Below, one piece after another: positions 13,309-34,080 of a stretch of 34,080 bases of DNA. Origin of the DNA: a virus; the IMG/VR virus record IMGVR_UViG_3300020205_001474, positions 1 to 34,080 of that record. One strand, 5' to 3'. Numbering within the stretch: the stretch's first letter is position 1; each line of letters begins with the position of its first letter. The notes below the pieces were generated by a model. The model saw only the letters and a list, made by a program, of their open reading frames with translations, was not told the origin of the DNA and made no database searches. A program made the translations under genes and the position numbers.

Positions 13309-13455
13309 ATGAGTAACGAGACACCGATTCGCACTGTCCGAGTGAATGACAAGCTGTGGAAAGCTGCCAAGACGCAAGCCAAACGCAGCGACACCACCAT
13401 CTCTGAAGTTATCAATCAGGCTTTGCGGGATTTCACGTCCAAGAAGGCTTCATGA
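13309..13455 (+). CDS. Ribbon-helix-helix DNA-binding protein
   Basis: This 48-aa protein has the pattern of a CopG/Arc-type ribbon-helix-helix: a short beta strand (IRTVRVNDKLW), then a helix (KAAKTQAKRSD) and a second helix after the turn (TTISEVINQALRDFT). Dimers of this fold bind DNA operators. It overlaps the start of the adenylosuccinate lyase gene (ATGA). It is the only clear regulator candidate in the genome and might bind the TGTAT-N9-ATACA repeats at P1 and P2, which is inference. Confidence 0.7.
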   Translation: MSNETPIRTVRVNDKLWKAAKTQAKRSDTTISEVINQALRDFTSKKAS

Positions 13456-14702
13456 TAGCGCGGTACACCTCGAGCGACATGGCCGCTGTTTGGTCCGACG
13501 AAGCCAAGTATCAGACTTGGGCCGAGGTCGAAATCGCAGTGATGCGAGCACAGGGCAGGCACGGCGTTGTCGCTTCTGACTTGTGGAAGGCTCTGAAGCT
13601 GACCCTGTTGCCAACACCAGCGCAAGTCGCCGCGCAAGAGCAGATCTTGAAGCACGACCTGATGGCATTCCTCGAGGCTTGGCGGCTCAACACCGACAAC
13701 CGCGAACTGCACAGGTGGCTTCACTACGGGCTTACCAGCTCGGACATTGTGGAGACAGGCCAGGCGACTTTGCTAGCTGAAGCCAACTGGCTGATCTCAA
13801 ATGCGGGCTACCGCCTTCTAGATTCTTTAATCGATCACGCTTTCAAATATAAGGACACTAAGCGAAGCGGCCGCACTCACGGTCAATTCGCCGAACCCAC
13901 AACCTGGGGCTATCGGGTGGCGGATTTCGCATTCGCTATCGAACGGGGGCTCGAACGACTCGGCTACTCCTGCGGCGGGGTTCAGACTGCACACATCTCG
14001 GGACCGTTGGGCAACTATGCTCACACCCCGAGGAGCGTAGAGCTGGACGTAGCTAAGGAGATGGGACTAGCCGTGCCCGATAGCGCTACCCAGGTGTTGA
14101 TGAGAGACTCTCTCGGAGCCTGGGCTTATTCATTGGCCAGCCTTGCCACTATCTGCGAGGGTTTCGCTCTCGAGGTGCGGCACGGCCAGCGCTCTGAGGT
14201 GCAGGAGATCTTTGAAGGCAGGAGTGAAGGCCAAGAAGGCTCCAGCTCTATGCCCCACAAGGAGAACCCAATCACCGCTGAGAAGATCTGCGGCTTGGCC
14301 AAGATAGCCAGGTCGTACGTCATGCCACTCACCGAGGGCATCGCTTTGTGGCATGAACGAGACATCAGCCACTCATCTGTTGAGCGAATCGCTCTGCCCG
14401 ATCTGTGTGCTATCACCGAGCACATCTTGATTGAGACTGCTAAGATGGTGAACAACTTACGAATAAATGAAGCTGGCATGTTCGAGAACACCCGCCAGGG
14501 CAGTACGACCATGCTAAACAAATATATTCAAGAAGGTATGACTCGCAACGAGGCTTACCAAGCTGCAAAAAGCGGGCTCCGTGAGAACTGCCCGCCAGCC
14601 GACACCCAGCACACCTGGGACCTTTTGTCAATGCTGAAAATAGCTCTCAACGAGGCGCGTGTCATGAGCGGCGTGTCGCAGTCAGAAATCGGTCGCTCAT
14701 GA
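13452..14702 (+). CDS. purB: Adenylosuccinate lyase-like (PurB family)
   Basis: This 416-aa member of the fumarase/aspartase superfamily has the PurB signature SSSMPHKENP (about residues 262-271) and other hallmark blocks: HYGLTSSDIVET (with the first catalytic His), GRTHGQFAEPTTWG (second His) and LWHERDISHSSVERI. It is closest in layout to the B. subtilis type. The family removes fumarate from adenylosuccinate; together with PurZ it would turn 2-aminodeoxyadenylosuccinate into dZMP. In most B. subtilis-type PurBs the signature reads KRNP rather than KENP; E. coli has KVNP, so this is tolerated. Known Z phages usually rely on the host PurB, so a phage copy is unusual. It lies about 6 kb from purZ in the same early region. 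Confidence 0.92.
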   Translation: MIARYTSSDMAAVWSDEAKYQTWAEVEIAVMRAQGRHGVVASDLWKALKLTLLPTPAQVAAQEQILKHDLMAFLEAWRLNTDNRELHRWLHYGLTSSDIVETGQATLLAEANWLISNAGYRLLDSLIDHAFKYKDTKRSGRTHGQFAEPTTWGYRVADFAFAIERGLERLGYSCGGVQTAHISGPLGNYAHTPRSVELDVAKEMGLAVPDSATQVLMRDSLGAWAYSLASLATICEGFALEVRHGQRSEVQEIFEGRSEGQEGSSSMPHKENPITAEKICGLAKIARSYVMPLTEGIALWHERDISHSSVERIALPDLCAITEHILIETAKMVNNLRINEAGMFENTRQGSTTMLNKYIQEGMTRNEAYQAAKSGLRENCPPADTQHTWDLLSMLKIALNEARVMSGVSQSEIGRS

Positions 14703-14737
14703 TACACTTGGACCCTAACGGGGGAAGGAACCTAAAG

Positions 14738-15013
14738 ATGTACTCATTCAGACACGCGGTTCGAGTAGAGGCTGACAACAACTGGTCTCGACAAGTCTCG
14801 ACGCTATTCAGAGACCCACTGCCTACCCATGTAGAACACGTTGGAGACAACGTCCACGGCAGCTGGTTCAAAATCACACTACCTGCGAGCGTTTGGGCGC
14901 TTGCCGTCAACTCCGAGAGAGGCACTTCAGTGGGCGTTTATCATTCGCCCGCTATCTTGGAGCTTGAACTAAGAAAGGCTTTACATGCCGATTCGAAAAA
15001 GACCAAAGCCTGA
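14738..15013 (+). CDS. Hypothetical early protein
   Basis: This 91-aa protein (from ATG 14738) is not recognised. The frame is open from 14699, where an ATG overlaps the purB stop, but a GGGGGAAGGAA ribosome site at 14720-14730 favours 14738. The sequence has alternating strands (YSFRHAVRVEADNNW, GSWFKITLP, GTSVGVYHSPAILELEL) and a basic tail. The next gene starts inside its 3' end. Confidence 0.6.
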   Translation: MYSFRHAVRVEADNNWSRQVSTLFRDPLPTHVEHVGDNVHGSWFKITLPASVWALAVNSERGTSVGVYHSPAILELELRKALHADSKKTKA

Positions 15014-17753: not shown

Positions 17754-19967
17754 ATGTCTTTAGAGGTACTCACAGCGGCGCTGCGATTCGCGGCAGCTGG
17801 CTGTTCAGTCGTGCCAGTCATGGCCGACGGCTCAAAGCGCCCAGGCATCGGTGCGTGGAAAGAGTACCAACACAAGCTGCCAACAGTTGAAGAACTTCAG
17901 GCTTGGTTCAAGGACGCCAAGGGCGTCGGTATCATCACGGGCAAGATCTCAAACAACCTCGAAATGCTCGAGGTCGAGGGTCGAGCGGTTGCAGACGGCA
18001 TTCACACTGAAATCAAAGACATGGCAATCGAGACTGGACTTGGAGAACTTTGGCAGCGGCTGAACGAGGGCTACTGCGAAATGACTCCGAGCGGCGGTTT
18101 GCACTGGTTCTATCGCTTAGACGGTGAAGTCCCTGGCAACACCAAGTTGGCAAGACGACCTGCTTCAGGCGACGGTGTTGATGTGCTTGCCGAGACCCGC
18201 GGTGAAGGTGGCTTCGTGGTTGCGGCTCCAAGCGGCGGCTCTTGTCACCCATCAGGTGGCTCTTGGTCTTTGATTTCAGGTTCGATTGAGACAATCCCGA
18301 CAATCACTCTCGAGGAGCGCGAAAGTCTCCATTCCTTATTTAGATATTTCGACCAGCTTCCAAAAGCCTCAGTGGTAGCTTCAGAGGTCACGGAGAGGCA
18401 TCGGGACGCGAACTCGACACTGCCAGGCGACGACTACAACGCAAAGACGACTTGGGACGAGATCTTGTTGCCACTGGGCTGGACAAAGGTATTCTCAAAG
18501 GGGCAGACGACCGCTTGGTGTCGCCCTGGCAAGCACGACGGCATCAGCGCCACCACCAACTATGAGGGTTCAGATCTGCTCTTTGTCTTTAGCACTAGCA
18601 CCATCTTTGAAGCAGAGCGCGGCTATTCCAAGTTCGCGGTTTACACCCTGCTGGAGCACGGCGGCGACTTCCATAAGGCAGCGTCAGCGCTAGCTGCGAA
18701 AGGCTTTGGCAGTGGCGTTTCAAGCTCGCTGCAACCGATTGACATTTCACAACTGATGCAAGCGCCCGAGCCTGAGCCATTTGCAGAGCCTGCGACAGAG
18801 CCCGACACCAGTTGGCTTCCAAGGACGATTGAATACGACGAGGACGAGACCGAGGCTGGCCCTACAGTTCTCTATCGCACAGACGGCCAGTGCTTGCTCT
18901 ACGCTGGAAAGATTAACGCGATTTTCGGAGAGTCAGAGTCGGGCAAGACCTGGGTGGCGCTGGAAGCCGTGCGCCAACAGCTGGTGCAGGGCAACAAGGT
19001 CTTTTATATTGACTTCGAGGATTCAAAGCGCGGTATTCGTGGCCGCCTGAAGGCACTTGGCGTCATGCGAGATCACTTTGCTCGCTTCAAGTACGCCAAC
19101 CCTGACGGCTCCTACAATGAGATCGCCCAGCAAGCACTGCTCGGTTCGATTCGCGACTTCACCCCCGACTTGATTGTGATGGACGGTGTCAACGCCGCCA
19201 TGAACCTGTTAGGCTTAGACCTTGAAAAGAACAAAGACGCCACCCAGTTCAGTCAGGTAGTCTTGCGACCGCTTCGCCTTTGGGGTGCAGCTGTCTTGAC
19301 CATTGACCACGTCACAAAGTCCAAGGACAACCGAGGCAACTACGCAATCGGCGCACAGGCCAAGCGTGCAGATATTGACGGCGTTGCGATCTCGGTGGAC
19401 GTGTCTATGCCTTTCGGTCGAGGCTCCAACGGCAAGCTCAACCTGAAGATCACCAAAGACCGCCCAGGCTTTGTTCGCGGCATCAGTCAAGAGGCCTCTT
19501 ATGTCGGCCACGTCGATCTGATTTCGCAAGCTGATAGCCGAATCGAGATCTCTATTGTCGGCGGGCAGATCGGCTTCACTCCTCACGAATATCTGATGCG
19601 CAAGGTATCGGAGTTCATGCAGAACCACGGCGCCGAGCTCTCAACCAACCAAATCGTCCAAGCGATTGACGGCGGCACCGACCAGATTAAAAAGGCGCTT
19701 GCTCAACTCGAGGGCCAAGGCTTCTTGGCGATTAGAGCTCAGGGCCAAGGGCGCTATTACAAGCACCTAAAGTCCTATGTCTTGGGAGCGCCCCAGCCGT
19801 TTGGCGGTGCTTTGGATAACTTGACCGACTTGACCGACCCTGACCGTGGGGGTATCGGTCAAGTAGGGGCAAGAGGCGACCGAAACTTGACCGACTTCGC
19901 CCCCCCCTATAAGGGGGGGCGGTCGGTGAAGTCGGTCAGCAGTGATGATGGTGAACCTGATGCGTGA
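17754..19967 (+). CDS. PrimPol-helicase: DNA primase/polymerase fused to RepA-like ATPase
   Basis: This 737-aa protein is the phage's main replication protein. Residues 1 to about 185 form a bifunctional primase/polymerase domain: a GCSVVPV opening, an acidic pair in EMLEVEG (Glu73 and Glu75) where the metal-binding acids are expected, TPSGGLHWFY, and GVDVLAETRGEGGFVVAAPS. Residues about 380-590 form a RecA-type ATPase like RepA or AAA_25, with Walker A GESESGKT (392-399) and Walker B LIVMDG (473-478). A winged-helix-like segment follows at about 610-670. The C-terminus is low complexity and its DNA carries dense repeats (19821-19938). No separate DNA polymerase gene exists here, so host Pol III must do most synthesis unless the PrimPol domain does. 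Confidence 0.88.
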   Translation: MSLEVLTAALRFAAAGCSVVPVMADGSKRPGIGAWKEYQHKLPTVEELQAWFKDAKGVGIITGKISNNLEMLEVEGRAVADGIHTEIKDMAIETGLGELWQRLNEGYCEMTPSGGLHWFYRLDGEVPGNTKLARRPASGDGVDVLAETRGEGGFVVAAPSGGSCHPSGGSWSLISGSIETIPTITLEERESLHSLFRYFDQLPKASVVASEVTERHRDANSTLPGDDYNAKTTWDEILLPLGWTKVFSKGQTTAWCRPGKHDGISATTNYEGSDLLFVFSTSTIFEAERGYSKFAVYTLLEHGGDFHKAASALAAKGFGSGVSSSLQPIDISQLMQAPEPEPFAEPATEPDTSWLPRTIEYDEDETEAGPTVLYRTDGQCLLYAGKINAIFGESESGKTWVALEAVRQQLVQGNKVFYIDFEDSKRGIRGRLKALGVMRDHFARFKYANPDGSYNEIAQQALLGSIRDFTPDLIVMDGVNAAMNLLGLDLEKNKDATQFSQVVLRPLRLWGAAVLTIDHVTKSKDNRGNYAIGAQAKRADIDGVAISVDVSMPFGRGSNGKLNLKITKDRPGFVRGISQEASYVGHVDLISQADSRIEISIVGGQIGFTPHEYLMRKVSEFMQNHGAELSTNQIVQAIDGGTDQIKKALAQLEGQGFLAIRAQGQGRYYKHLKSYVLGAPQPFGGALDNLTDLTDPDRGGIGQVGARGDRNLTDFAPPYKGGRSVKSVSSDDGEPDA
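19821..19938. repeat. Iteron-like GACCG repeats and large hairpin (candidate origin)
   Basis: The motif TTGACCGACTT and its core GACCG recur in both orientations at about 19821, 19830, 19841, 19855 (inverted), 19878, 19888, 19919 (inverted) and 19931 (inverted). TGACCGACTTC (19888-19898) and GAAGTCGGTCA (19928-19938) are a perfect 11-base inverted repeat. Inside lies GCCCCCCC/GGGGGGGC (899-906 and 913-920 of the 19 kb block) with a 6-base loop. All of it lies within the 3' end of the PrimPol gene, where it codes for low-complexity sequence. It could be a replication origin, a regulatory site or a pause/terminator hairpin. Confidence 0.7.
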
Positions 19968-20319: not shown

Positions 20320-21354
20320 ATGGCAGGACGTCTCATCGCCGTAGTCGGCGGTCAGTATGGCAGTGAAGGAAAGGGCGCCGTAGCAGGTTACCTATCCGCA
20401 ACCTCTGATGTACCGTTCATGGGAATCAGAGTGGCAGGACCAAACGCAGGGCACACCGTCATCGGCAAAGGCCCTAACGGCGAGGAGTCATACGCATGGC
20501 GACTTCGCTCAATCCCAGTCAACGCAGTGACTGCACCCGAGTCTGACCTCATCATCGCGGCAGGCTCTGAGATCGACATGGAAGTCTTTAACAGAGAGCT
20601 TTCAGAACTAGACCAAGCTGGCTACCAGGCTAGTTCACGCATCATCGTGGACGACCAAGCCACAATCTTGGAGCCTCGCCACCACGACATTGAGACCAGT
20701 GACGGCATTCAAGCCCGAATCGGCTCAACAAGCAAAGGCATCGGCGCTTCACGTGCCGACCGCATTATGCGCAAGGCCTCTCTATTCGGCGGTGGTGTAG
20801 ATACTTCACAAGTTATTCGCGAGCACCTACAAAGAGGCGGCACTGCTCTAATCGAAGGCACACAGGGCTACGGCCTTGGACTGCACGCAGGTCTGTACCC
20901 GTTCTGCACAAGCCAAGACTGCAGAGCCTTGGACTTCTTAGCGCAAGCTGGCGTCAGCCCGTGGGACCGTGCAGTTGATGTCTTTGACATTTGGGTCACA
21001 GCTCGCACTTACCCAATCCGCGTTGCTGGTAACTCAGGGCCGCTGGAGAACGAGACCAGCTGGGAACAGCTAGGACTAGAGGCTGAACGCACGACCGTGA
21101 CTCAAAAGATTCGCAGAGTCGGGCACTTTGACAGCAAGCTAGTTCGAGATGCTGTTATTGGCAACGGTGGTGCTCCAACTGTCAAGATCGCACTCACCAT
21201 GTTTGACTATATCTTTCCTGAGCTGAAAGACCAAAGCCAAATAGACATCTTGTCTGAGGAACAACAACGCTACATCACCGACATCGAGAGTGCAGTGAAC
21301 GCACCAGTTAAGCTGGTCGGCACTGGACCTTCAACGATGGCGTGGGTCAAATGA
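20320..21354 (+). CDS. purZ: PurZ-like 2-aminodeoxyadenylosuccinate synthetase
   Basis: This 344-aa enzyme is related to adenylosuccinate synthetase (PurA) but has phage PurZ features. The P-loop is GGQYGSEGKG (residues 10-19) with Ser15 where PurA has its catalytic Asp, a change that makes room for the 2-amino group of dGMP. The catalytic His is kept (PNAGH, His45). The segment YPFCTSQDC (193-201) matches PurZ rather than the YPYVTSSN type of bacterial PurA, and TTVTQKIRRVGHFD (258-271) is the aspartate-binding loop. It is far shorter than the roughly 430 aa of PurA. PurZ joins aspartate to dGMP in the pathway that puts 2-aminoadenine into phage DNA. It starts after AAAGGGGGAAC and overlaps the next gene. 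Substrate choice is inferred from motifs. Confidence 0.88.
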   Translation: MAGRLIAVVGGQYGSEGKGAVAGYLSATSDVPFMGIRVAGPNAGHTVIGKGPNGEESYAWRLRSIPVNAVTAPESDLIIAAGSEIDMEVFNRELSELDQAGYQASSRIIVDDQATILEPRHHDIETSDGIQARIGSTSKGIGASRADRIMRKASLFGGGVDTSQVIREHLQRGGTALIEGTQGYGLGLHAGLYPFCTSQDCRALDFLAQAGVSPWDRAVDVFDIWVTARTYPIRVAGNSGPLENETSWEQLGLEAERTTVTQKIRRVGHFDSKLVRDAVIGNGGAPTVKIALTMFDYIFPELKDQSQIDILSEEQQRYITDIESAVNAPVKLVGTGPSTMAWVK

Positions 21355-21746
21355 GAAACGGGTTCAATGAGTGGCAGGACATGGCAGCGGCCTTCAGAAA
21401 AGAGACTCCCACACAAGACGCACCGACCGTGCAGAGTCTTGCGAATTGGTGGCTGGACGAGACCAAGAACGAATTAGACTCTGTCATACCAAAAGCCGTG
21501 GAGTACGGCAGCGCAGATCTGAAAGTCATCGGCTTTGCTTTGAGTCAGATGATTGGCAAACCGACTAACGTGACAGATGATGAACTAGGCATCGCCTTTT
21601 ACGTGCTCGGCAAGGTCGCACGTCTAATCGGTGGCTATGCAGATGGCCGAGCGCCTTCTGACGACACATGGCACGACATCGCTATCTACACCAAGATGGC
21701 GCAATACGCACGCAAGCACAACGGCTGGGGTGGATTCGTCGAATGA
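21351..21746 (+). CDS. MazG/MazZ-like candidate or nucleotide-modification-associated protein
   Basis: This 131-aa all-helical protein starts at ATG 21351 (ATGA overlap with purZ). It has ESVIPKAVEYG-like spacing (acidic helix, then KAVEYGSADL) and a C-terminal helical block DDELGIAFYVLGKVARL ... SDDTWHDIAIYTKMAQYAR, whose acidic D-D-E and D-xxx-D positions recall the metal-binding acids of all-alpha NTP pyrophosphohydrolases. In known Z phages, MazZ turns dGTP into dGMP, the substrate of PurZ, and lies beside purZ. Direct coupling here supports that role. The match is weak by eye and the classical EExxE motif is not clear. Similar proteins are common in actinophages without PurZ. Confidence 0.5.
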   Translation: MRNGFNEWQDMAAAFRKETPTQDAPTVQSLANWWLDETKNELDSVIPKAVEYGSADLKVIGFALSQMIGKPTNVTDDELGIAFYVLGKVARLIGGYADGRAPSDDTWHDIAIYTKMAQYARKHNGWGGFVE

Positions 21747-22171
21747 TAGTCTACCTCGCTGGCCCGATCGATTTCGTCACTGGTTCAAAAGTGAACAAGC
21801 TAAAAGACGAAATCAAAGCACACTTCAAAGAGCAGGAGTGTGTGTGGGTGTACGACCCAGCTGGTGCATGGAACGCACCGAGCGACCTTGTCCCCGATGA
21901 GTTCGTGCACTGGGCTAACTTGCTTGTGCTCGAGCAATCCGACCTTGTTGTTGCAGTGTTGACGAAAGGCGTGCTTACAGTGGGCACGATTCTTGAAATC
22001 CAACATGCACACGACAACGAGATTCCTGTCGTCGTAATTGGCGACCTTGGAATTAACAGCGTAGGACTGGCAGCGCTAGACGTGCCAGTGTTTGAATCAA
22101 TAATGGAATGGAGTGATTATGGCAGCCCTGTTGTACCGCGTACTGACGCCGACTGGCTTAGCGCCAACTAA
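21743..22171 (+). CDS. Nucleoside 2-deoxyribosyltransferase-fold protein
   Basis: This 142-aa protein has the fold's opening IVYLAGPIDF and its active-site region LLVLEQSDLVVAVLTKGVLTVGTILEIQHAHD, in which the Glu of LEI is the likely nucleophile; the usual closing strand VVVIGDLG follows. Family members move or remove the base of deoxynucleosides, and some act as deoxynucleotide hydrolases. It is coupled to the MazG-like gene (ATGA) and overlaps the dUTPase gene by 53 bases, so it belongs to the nucleotide-pool cluster with PurZ. It might remove unwanted dNMPs such as dAMP or salvage bases. That specific role is speculation. Confidence 0.7.
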   Translation: MIVYLAGPIDFVTGSKVNKLKDEIKAHFKEQECVWVYDPAGAWNAPSDLVPDEFVHWANLLVLEQSDLVVAVLTKGVLTVGTILEIQHAHDNEIPVVVIGDLGINSVGLAALDVPVFESIMEWSDYGSPVVPRTDADWLSAN

Positions 22172-22550
22172 GGCGTACGGCGACGATGCAGGTTTCGATC
22201 TGTATTGTGACGCAGAAATGGTGATCGAACCAAGCACTTTTGTGGACGTTCCACTTGGTGTTGCAATCAAAGTGCCCGAGGGGACTTGGGGCTTGCTAAC
22301 AGCTCGCTCCAGCACCTTGCGCAAGCACGGCCTCATGGTGGCACAAGGTGTCATTGATTGTGGCTACACTGGCCCACTTTTTGCAGGAGTGTGGAACATG
22401 ACTGACAAACCAGTCAAAATCGAACCTGGCATGCGCCTGGTTCAGTATATTCTTATGACCAACGCTTCTCTTGATGTTCAAGCACAAGAGGTGGCAGAGC
22501 TTCCCAAAACCGACCGTGGCGCCTCGGGTTTTGGGAGTTCAGGTGTCTGA
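22119..22550 (+). CDS. dut: dUTPase (deoxyuridine triphosphatase), trimeric family
   Basis: This 143-aa protein carries all five dUTPase motifs in order: DAGFDLY (1), ARSSTLRKHGLMV (2), GVIDCGYTGPLFAGVWN (3), PGMRLVQ (4) and RGASGFGSSG (5). It hydrolyses dUTP to dUMP, keeping uracil out of phage DNA and feeding thymidylate synthesis. ATG 22119 follows GGAG (22109-22112); a GTG at 22113 is possible but less well placed. The C-terminal Gly-rich motif is complete, so the enzyme should be active. It completes the nucleotide-pool cluster after purZ. Confidence 0.92.
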   Translation: MAALLYRVLTPTGLAPTKAYGDDAGFDLYCDAEMVIEPSTFVDVPLGVAIKVPEGTWGLLTARSSTLRKHGLMVAQGVIDCGYTGPLFAGVWNMTDKPVKIEPGMRLVQYILMTNASLDVQAQEVAELPKTDRGASGFGSSGV

Positions 22551-25975: not shown

Positions 25976-26322
25976 TGACCGCTGGCATTTACAACACCAC
26001 TATCGACCAAGGCTCAGTGTGGTCTGTCGTGTTGGTGTACACTGACTCCAACAATGCGCCCGTGAACTTGACTGGTTACACTGCGGCCATGCAACTGCGA
26101 CAAAGTTACAATTCAACAACAGCTGACCTGACGCTGACTACAGCGAACGGCGGCATTACAATCGTCGGTGCAACTGGCACTATCACAATCACTGCTACAG
26201 CAGTGCAAACAGGGGCTCTTGACCCAGGCTTTTACGTTTATGATTTAGAATTGACATCGGGTTCCAATATCTCTCGCCTAATCCAAGGCCAGTTGACCGT
26301 AGCAGAGCAGGTGACACGATAA
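25975..26322 (+). CDS. Small beta-rich structural protein (appendage module start)
   Basis: This 115-aa protein includes [38 protein letters not shown], a form widespread in phages as an N-terminal docking domain of fibre or head proteins. Then come strands with [18 protein letters not shown] and [15 protein letters not shown]. It precedes the collagen-like gene (TAATG overlap) and may attach it to the virion. It is probably a base or adaptor for a head or tail appendage. Confidence 0.65.
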
Positions 26323-28121
26323 TGGCAGCCAATAAAGTCACCATCAATGAAACCAACAACAACGTCGAGATCTCAGCCCCAGGCCCACAAGGTTCACAAG
26401 GACCAACTGGTCCCACAGGCGCCACAGGCCCAGCGGGTGCTACAGGTGCAACAGGTCCAGTCGGAGCTACAGGTGCCACAGGTCCCACAGGAGTCACAGG
26501 CGCAACTGGCCCAACTGGAGCTACAGGCCCAGTCGGTGCAACAGGCGCAACAGGCCCAGTTGGAGCCACTGGTCCAACAGGTGCAACAGGAGCCACAGGC
26601 CCACAAGGTATTCAAGGTGACACGGGCGCGACAGGACCAACTGGTCCAGTTGGCGCTACAGGTCCAGTCGGTGCGACTGGCGCGGTTGGCCCAACAGGCC
26701 CAACAGGTGTCACGGGAGCAACAGGCCCACAAGGCATTCAGGGTGTTCAAGGCATTCAAGGCGACACTGGTGCGACTGGTCCGATAGGGCCAACTGGCGC
26801 TACTGGCCCAACGGGTGCTACAGGTGCAGACTCAACTGTTCCTGGACCTACTGGCCCAACAGGCCCAGCTGGAGCGACAGGCCCAACAGGAGCCACAGGC
26901 GCAGCTTCAACAGTGCCAGGCCCGACAGGTGCGACAGGCCCAGCGGGTGCAACAGGCCCAACTGGAGCTACAGGCCCACAAGGAATCCAAGGCCCAACTG
27001 GAGCTACAGGCCCGCAAGGTGCTGCTGGCGCAAACGGCGGCTCTACGAGCCTATTCGATTTTTTGGCAGACACGACTGCCACGTCGGGCGACCCTGGCGC
27101 TGGCGATATCCGTTGGAACAACGCCACTCAGATCAACGCTACTTCACTTCTGATCGACCACTTAGACGTCAACGGCAACGACATTGATGTCTTTATAGCG
27201 CTGCTCAAGGCAGACGATTTCATCATCGTGCAAGATCGAGACGTTCATACCAACTTCCAAAAGTTCAAGCTTACAGCAGCAGCAACTGTTTTAGGCGGTT
27301 ACAGCACCGTTCCAGTTGTACTTGATTCATCAGGTGGCACTGGCACAACCAACTTTTTCAATACACAATCACTTGCGTTGTTGCTTATCAATGTCGGCTT
27401 AACTGGAGCGACAGGCCCAATCGGTCCTACAGGCCCAACAGGTGCCACGGGTCCAACAGGCCCTGCGGGCGCAACTGGAGCAACTGGCCCACAAGGCGTT
27501 GCTGGTCCAACTGGAGCCACTGGCCCAGCTGGTGCAAACGGTGCAACTGGAGCAACAGGCCCACAAGGCGAAGTTGGCCCAACAGGCGCAACAGGTCCAG
27601 TCGGTGCGACAGGTCCAGTCGGTGCAACAGGTGCAACTGGTCCACAAGGTATTCAAGGAATCCAAGGCGTCCAAGGCGTTCAAGGCGAAGTCGGTCCAAC
27701 AGGCCCAACAGGCCCAGTCGGTGCAACAGGCCCAGCAGGAGCCACAGGCCCAGCAGGTGCCACAGGTGCAACTGGTCCACAAGGAATCCAAGGCGATGTC
27801 GGCGCTACTGGCCCAACAGGTCCAGCTGGTGCGACAGGTCCTGCAGGTGCGACAGGCGCAACTGGCCCGCAAGGAATCCAAGGCGACACTGGAGCAACTG
27901 GTCCATCTGGTGCCACGGGAGCCACTGGTCCACAAGGAGACGCTGGCCCGATCGGTGCTACAGGTCCAATCGGTGCCACGGGGCCCGAGGGCGCAACTGG
28001 CCCAGTCGGCGCAACTGGTCCAACGGGGCCAACTGGAAATACTGGCGCAACAGGAGCAACTGGTCCGCAAGGCGCAGATGCAACCGCACTGCCTGGGATT
28101 TTAATGCTCGGCGGAATGTAA
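26322..28121 (+). CDS. Collagen-like fibre protein with central globular domain
   Basis: This 599-aa protein has two long collagen-like blocks (about residues 20-235 and 357-590) made of Gly-X-Y triplets, mostly [12 protein letters not shown] and GIQ. A compact non-collagen domain of about 120 residues separates them (starting [14 protein letters not shown]). The C-terminus ends in [11 protein letters not shown]. Collagen-like phage proteins trimerise into rods and bind hosts or surfaces. Its place between terminase and portal genes hints at a head appendage. The DNA is repetitive and opens long false frames on the other strand. The copy number of triplets may vary in nature or be misassembled. 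Confidence 0.9.
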
Positions 28122-33209: not shown

Positions 33210-34080
33210 TGCCATATTATATCTCGGACCAACAAAGTGATTGCTCGGGCTGGGCAACTGTAATGCAAGAATCAGACGGCAGCTACACCACAATAGGCTG
33301 CCATGACACCAAACAAGACGCGATTGACCAAATGGTCGCAGTCTCTATTTCTGAGGATATGGAGCCTGGGGGCGAAGTTGGCCAACGAACAACCGTCGGG
33401 GACGATAGGAGCAAGATGAAGAAGATCGAACGTCGTACTTACACAGTGCGAAACGTGGAGACACGAAAAGAGGACGACGGCAAAATGCGCTTGTCGGGCT
33501 ACGCTGCTGTGTTTAACAACGCCAGCGTGCCGCTACCGTTCATCGAGTACATCGCACCTGGCGCTTTCCGTAAGACCCTAAGCGAGACTCCTGATGTACG
33601 CTTGTTAATCAACCATGAGGGCCTGCCGCTAGCACGCACTAAGAATGGCACTCTTACTTTAACCGAGGACGAAGTTGGCTTGCGGTTTGACGCAGAACTG
33701 CCTGACACAAACGAAGCTCGAGATCTTTACACACTTATTGAGCGAGGCGACGTCGATCAGATGAGCTTTGCATTTCGCGTGATACGACAGAAGTTTAACA
33801 AAGACCGCAGCGAGCGCACACTGACTGAAGTGTCACTGTCTGACGGAGACGTCAGTGTTGTCACCTACCCAGCTTATCCAACAACTTCAGTTGAAGCGCG
33901 TGAGCATTTGGCTCGGGCAATTCAAGCCGTTAAAGAAGGTCGCGAGGTTTCAGGCGAATCACTTATCGTCTTGCAAAGCGTCTTTGAAAAGATGTCTGAA
34001 GGCCATGAGTACGTCATGGAAGCTGTCGAGATGATGGCCGCACTAATGGGCGCCCAAGAGGAGCCAGTTGAAGACGAGGC
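33209..34080 (+). CDS. Prohead protease with extra N-terminal domain (continues at window start)
   Basis: This open frame starts at ATG 33209 (TAATG overlap with portal) and continues across the circle join to position 211, giving 327 aa. Residues 1 to about 69 form an extra small domain (PYYISDQQSDCSGWATV, TIGCHDTKQDAIDQMVAVSI), common in actinophage proteases. The HK97 U35-type protease follows: SGYAAVFNN, YIAPGAFRKTL, VRLLINHEG with the catalytic His, and the Ser in DQMSFAFRV. It cleaves the capsid delta domain during head maturation. A good internal ribosome site (AGGAG, 33407-33411) precedes ATG 33416, so a shorter 258-aa form is likely also made. Confidence 0.9.
   Translation, partial: MPYYISDQQSDCSGWATVMQESDGSYTTIGCHDTKQDAIDQMVAVSISEDMEPGGEVGQRTTVGDDRSKMKKIERRTYTVRNVETRKEDDGKMRLSGYAAVFNNASVPLPFIEYIAPGAFRKTLSETPDVRLLINHEGLPLARTKNGTLTLTEDEVGLRFDAELPDTNEARDLYTLIERGDVDQMSFAFRVIRQKFNKDRSERTLTEVSLSDGDVSVVTYPAYPTTSVEAREHLARAIQAVKEGREVSGESLIVLQSVFEKMSEGHEYVMEAVEMMAALMGAQEEPVEDE
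33982..34080. repeat. Terminal redundancy, right copy
   Basis: This is the same 99 bases as 1-99. See the left copy: the genome is best read as a circle of 33,981 bp with the protease gene continuous across the join. Confidence 0.95.

Follow-up and report, generated by a model that had tools for sequence, protein, structure and literature searches.

A phage-encoded PurB-family lyase that accompanies PurZ0-type synthases and probably serves 2-aminoadenine synthesis

Introduction

The synthesis of 2-aminoadenine (Z) by phages depends on PurZ, a family established to convert dGMP and aspartate into 2-amino-deoxyadenylosuccinate (dSMP). In the described Z phages the following step, from dSMP to dZMP, is assigned to host enzymes (PMC12884076, PMC12783734). 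A 2026 study of Gordonia phage Ghobes (PMC12884076) showed that its DmtZ and DutZ hydrolyse dAMP and dATP/dGTP, respectively; there too the lyase step is credited to the host and no phage lyase is mentioned. The public record of Ghobes annotates a PurB-like protein. In titles and abstracts of the searchable literature, outside which many primary Z-DNA papers lie in subscription journals, we found no phage-encoded PurB in Z phages. In cyanophage S-2L, a PrimPol is the sole polymerase (PMC8065100).

Here we analyse IMG/VR virus record IMGVR_UViG_3300020205_001474, from a small, uncultured bacterial virus; the whole stretch of 34,080 nucleotides is called the window below. Like Ghobes, this virus carries a PurZ0-type PurZ, DmtZ-like and DutZ-like genes and a PurB-like protein, but it has no DNA polymerase I (DpoZ). 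With S-2L (PMC8065100, PMC8342488) it shares PurZ and a PrimPol as only polymerase; it differs in its DutZ/DmtZ-like enzymes and its PurB, S-2L using DatZ and MazZ. The Hiyaavirus phages Hiyaa, Keanu, Galactica and Spocter resemble it in combining a PurZ (51-53% identity to that of the window) with a PurB (39%) in the same genome; they differ in their genomes of about 82 kb and, in Hiyaa, by a purB downstream of purZ and the presence of a DNA polymerase I.

Results

The window encodes a conserved PurB

The first and last 99 bases of the window are identical and the junction is spanned by a sister contig (L083), so the record represents a whole genome, closed or terminally redundant, of 33,981 bp. 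Its structural region includes, at 26322-28121, a long collagen-like protein of Gly-X-Y repeats. The repeat, and purB with its immediate neighbours, are as follows.

1 to 99, no strand: terminal repeat, left copy, exact, 99 bp (right copy at 33982-34080)
13309 to 13455, + strand: 48-aa ORF, ribbon-helix-helix-like, a weak assignment read from the sequence
13452 to 14702, + strand: purB, adenylosuccinate-lyase family, 416 aa, proposed dSMP lyase (TIGR00928, conserved residues, dN/dS about 0.05)
14699 to 15013, + strand: 104-aa ORF with no PHROG match

An earlier note, made from the sequence alone, had read the 416-aa product as a PurB-family lyase, and its model score, residues and relatives all confirm this. 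The ORF, which starts with ATG, reaches 332.1 bits with the NCBIfam purB model TIGR00928, above the equivalog cut-off of 326.2. As a check on the canonical C-terminal domain, the TIGR00928 alignment covers 414 of 436 positions, while Pfam gives Lyase_1 alone (1.4e-31). Thermotoga adenylosuccinate lyase 1c3u is matched at 1.2e-76. Taking as reference the AMP-binding and catalytic residues of Staphylococcus aureus PurB (PMC2917274), the alignment shows that the phage protein keeps His68, His143, Ser265, Lys270, Asn272, Glu277, Gln214 and Arg312 (His68, His141, Ser263, Lys268, Asn270, Glu275, Gln212 and Arg310 in S. aureus), as well as Arg4, Tyr5, Asp69, Ser96, Gln261 and Ser308/309; its SSSMPHKENP is the catalytic signature loop. 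It thus resembles cellular PurB (TIGR00928; 1c3u, 1f1o, 2x75) in fold family, in catalytic and phosphate/N6-contact residues and in length, but is phage-encoded, belongs to a separate, supported group and has a few residues of its own, one of them beside a catalytic His.

Near relatives share 70-99% identity along the whole protein, with pairwise dN/dS of 0.04-0.08, which excludes a chance ORF; the gene is under strong purifying selection. Both ends of purB overlap the neighbouring ORFs in an ATGA, the stop of the upstream ORF with the start of purB and the stop of purB with the start of the downstream one. The arrangement is operon-like, and the upstream overlap suggests translational coupling of the 48-aa ORF and purB.

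A PurZ0-type module lies downstream

The same note had placed PurZ in the same early region, and a purZ is indeed found about 5.6 kb downstream of purB, both genes lying in the rightward early region. It is preceded by a replicative protein and followed by three further genes:

17754 to 19967, + strand: Prim-Pol / AAA helicase-like replicative protein (PF09250; PHROG DNA polymerase/primase)
20320 to 21354, + strand: purZ (PurZ0 side), 2-aminodeoxyadenylosuccinate synthase (NF038379; Ser replacing Asp13, GSEGKG)
21342 to 21746, + strand: 134-aa protein with no Pfam match, directly 3' of purZ; homologues only in actinophages of PurZ0-carrying groups
21743 to 22171, + strand: dmtZ-like, nucleoside deoxyribosyltransferase family (PF05014; the longest ORF opens at 21668)
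22113 to 22550, + strand: dutZ-like, dUTPase family (PF00692)

PurZ scores 341.6 bits against NF038379 (cut-off 300) and, in a quick tree, groups with the PurZs of Ghobes and Arthrobacter phage Preamble, away from those of phiVC8 and SH-Ab. The DmtZ-like protein is 33% identical to Ghobes DmtZ and keeps equivalents of all five residues Tyr6, Asp12, Pro57, Asn77 and Glu103, whose roles are described in PMC12884076; the DutZ-like protein is 47% identical to Ghobes DutZ, and its hydrolysis of dATP and dGTP is putative. DatZ, MazZ and DpoZ of known Z phages, including DatZ of phiVC8 and SH-Ab and MazZ of SH-Ab, have no counterpart that we could find in the window.

The 134-aa protein encoded directly after purZ, for which an identity as DUF5664 was considered and dropped when Pfam gave no match, finds homologues by tblastn in 31 phage records, all belonging to groups of actinophages (Microbacterium, Gordonia, Streptomyces, Curtobacterium and Micrococcus) that, where listed, turn up in the PurZ search too. 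It also matches Ghobes gp51 and Hiyaa gp68 in their C-terminal regions. This protein is likely to be an uncharacterised component of the Z pathway.

The Prim-Pol is the sole polymerase-type gene recognised in the window, and no DNA_pol_A is present anywhere in the complete genome. Since DpoZ is lacking, complete substitution of Z for A is not guaranteed. A PurZ0-type module with PrimPol, and with neither DpoZ nor DatZ, is an unusual combination compared with described PurZ0 phages.

PurB and PurZ occur together across phage lineages

Scanning IMG/VR with PurB gave 17 close loci in the genus of the window and scanning with PurZ gave 43; the partner was then sought in the whole records. All 16 testable contigs, that is, those long enough to show both genes, carried both. 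Three contigs (L019, L041 and L042) were considered as genus members with PurZ and without PurB, and were rejected as such when they proved to begin downstream of purB. Two of the three are lengthened by a C5-methyltransferase insertion (between 17725 and 17763 of the window); this C5-cytosine DNA methyltransferase gene (L019:2682-3881; L041:2645-4072) is cleanly missing from the same site in the window.

Beyond the genus, co-occurrence was followed in both directions. Of 80 loci in a PurB alignment scan, 54 fell outside the genus, and 20 of these carry a complete PurZ with Ser13, including two (L179 and L190) whose PurZ scores, 273 and 276 bits, lie just below the cut-off of 300. One more (L181), taken at first for PurZ-less, ends inside a true PurZ and so has a truncated one. 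Most of the very large records (100-430 kb) are among those with PurB but no PurZ. Selection by PurZ alone is the unbiased direction for PurB co-occurrence: among environmental contigs of at least 20 kb outside the genus, PurB is present in 16/22 and absent from six, a proportion that describes only the branch near the PurZ of the window, towards which the set was ranked.

Two of the very large contigs with PurB, L290 (157 kb) and L292 (427 kb), also encode a PurA-like protein whose Asp13 site reads GSCGKG or GSSGKG. These proteins have a Ser like PurZ and are otherwise unlike it; they are possibly another purine-modifying synthase. The PurA-like protein of L291 (38.8 kb) has GSEGKG and 205 bits to the PurZ model, with no match to the TTVT pattern.

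Public records contain eight isolated phages with both genes, four of Streptomyces (Hiyaa, Keanu, Galactica and Spocter, the Hiyaa group) and four of Gordonia (Ghobes, Frizzle, Sapo and Archimedes, the Ghobes/Archimedes group), the PurZ of Frizzle being deduced from the Gordonia count in the PurZ search and not from its own record. The PurB of Ghobes is gp36 and that of Hiyaa gp76. In the PurZ phages phiVC8, SH-Ab 15497, Preamble, FireCastle and Parvaparticeps, PurB was not found. Unannotated 'phage' records with PurB were set aside as evidence, those examined being flagged UNVERIFIED, and Microcystis phage MaAM05 was also left uncounted, bacterial-type genes surrounding its purB. The statement of the earlier note that known Z phages are described as using host PurB agrees with the literature (PMC12884076, PMC12783734); that other Z phages lack a PurB of their own is contradicted by these eight isolates. 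The search for PurZ and PurB in phage genomes that it had proposed as a check came out strongly in its favour, both within the genus and outside it, and this co-occurrence supports its view that the phage PurB goes with PurZ and makes the Z pathway more self-contained.

The relative order, strand and spacing of the two genes differ among lineages, from head to head (110-144 bp apart in one lineage) to 24 kb apart. Shared synteny alone thus does not explain the pairing; both genes have been retained while their arrangement changed.

The phage PurBs form one group and diverge in parallel with PurZ

With broad sampling of Actinobacteria, a PurB tree places the 33 PurBs of PurZ phages on one side of a single branch with 100/99 support, found in every bootstrap tree; on the other side are 25 bacterial, seven sister-type actinobacterial and seven PurZ-less viral PurBs, the last placed among the bacterial ones. 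The nearest cellular relative is an actinobacterial PurB (L193-type); within a single actinobacterial family, 26 of 41 genomes have it. An earlier, less well sampled tree had set the group L175-L191 apart, beside long-branched PurZ-less viral sequences, so that the single origin depends on sampling; we regard it as likely, although not proven. Pairwise PurB and PurZ distances are strongly correlated (Mantel r 0.885, n=28, p=0.0001), also when close relatives are removed (r 0.787, n=23, p=0.0001), and the PurZ tree contains the same groups as the PurB tree. An ancient capture from an actinobacterial PurB is the best reading of these trees; as for the direction of gains and losses, we infer a single capture followed by losses.

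Few residues are private to the phage PurBs

The earlier note had also suggested that the phage enzyme may be tuned to the 2-amino-deoxy substrate; its other suggestion, that the enzyme may make up for a small host with weak purine flux, is speculative. A candidate Z-specific signature (Pro185, Leu221, Ile/Val293, Gly296 and Ala314) was obtained with a first bacterial PurB sample that was biased by the DNA patterns used, and bacteria were re-sampled in 296 Actinomycetota genomes and then in the 41 genomes of the single family. The L193-type PurB, unlike most bacterial PurBs, carries Pro185, Ile221, Val293, Gly296 and usually Ala314; as most of the signature thus occurs in cellular actinobacterial PurB, it was dropped as a sign of tuning. 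Seven columns still set the PurBs of PurZ phages apart from both the cellular sister and bacterial PurBs in general: Arg78, Gln145 (two residues after the catalytic His), Leu221, Ala225, Leu244, Ala286 and Leu318. These are candidates for mutagenesis only.

Discussion

We consider it probable that the phage-owned PurB performs the second step of Z synthesis and that it has been passed down together with PurZ of the PurZ0 type. In the proposed pathway DutZ, by analogy with Ghobes, would convert dGTP to dGMP and dATP to dAMP; PurZ would join dGMP and aspartate; and the phage PurB would then split dSMP into dZMP and fumarate, by the same chemistry that PurB applies to adenylosuccinate. Host kinases would take dZMP to dZTP, for incorporation by the PrimPol and/or a host polymerase, and the genome of this phage would accordingly be expected to contain Z. 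The lyase would go back to the capture of an actinobacterial PurB, apparently a single event, after which many phage lineages would have inherited it along with the PurZ0-type synthase and some, such as Arthrobacter and Microbacterium phages, would have lost it. A phage PurB is not strictly required, since cellular PurB is stated to do the step in the described phages. The new element here is the assignment of the lyase to the phage; the gene already stands in public annotations, and others may have made the same point before.

PurB is bifunctional, acting on SAICAR and adenylosuccinate (PMC2917274), PurZ0 is reported to prefer ATP, and PurZ-less viral contigs with PurB exist, many of them large and with PurA-like genes, all of which would suit an ordinary auxiliary metabolic gene that raises AMP/ATP and SAICAR flux and is unrelated to Z. 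We nevertheless hold that explanation to be unlikely, given that no purine synthesis gene other than purB and purZ was recognised in the window, that the PurBs of PurZ phages group together and track PurZ divergence while PurZ-less viral ones lie among bacterial PurBs, and that annotated isolates with PurB also have PurZ, bar MaAM05 and the draft contigs of Acinetobacter MD-2021a (exceptions of bacterial context or contig type). Far less probable again is a link by shared ancestry only, in which a block with both genes was inherited and purB has no selected role: the constant gene order within the genus of the window would fit it, but the low dN/dS, the variation of order, strand and distance between lineages, and the retention of PurB in most of the diverse contigs selected by PurZ argue against it.

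A stronger form of the preferred reading, compatible with it, is that the lyase has become adapted to the 2-amino-2'-deoxy substrate and has ceased to act in the ribonucleotide pathway of the host. Its seven own residues and its long co-inheritance with PurZ point that way, but the stronger-looking set at 185, 293, 296 and 314 was already present in cellular actinobacterial PurB, and Gln145 is found in PurZ-less viral PurBs too; we think such re-tuning possible but doubtful. It is with similar reserve that we raise the idea that the PurBs of PurZ phages are a dedicated 2-aminodeoxyadenylosuccinate lyase, which would have arisen once from actinobacterial PurB, would belong ancestrally to the PurZ0 system and would prefer dSMP over adenylosuccinate and SAICAR. 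Were this so, the phage would control every step from dGTP to dZMP.

If most of the environmental lineages sampled on this branch do inherit a phage lyase together with PurZ0, the usual catalogue of Z genes would be incomplete for a large part of Z phages. The supply of Z may be limited by the host enzyme, and transfer of the Z pathway to other bacteria may work better with three genes than with two. The paired enzymes would also offer a natural set in which to study how the specificities of PurZ and PurB evolve jointly.
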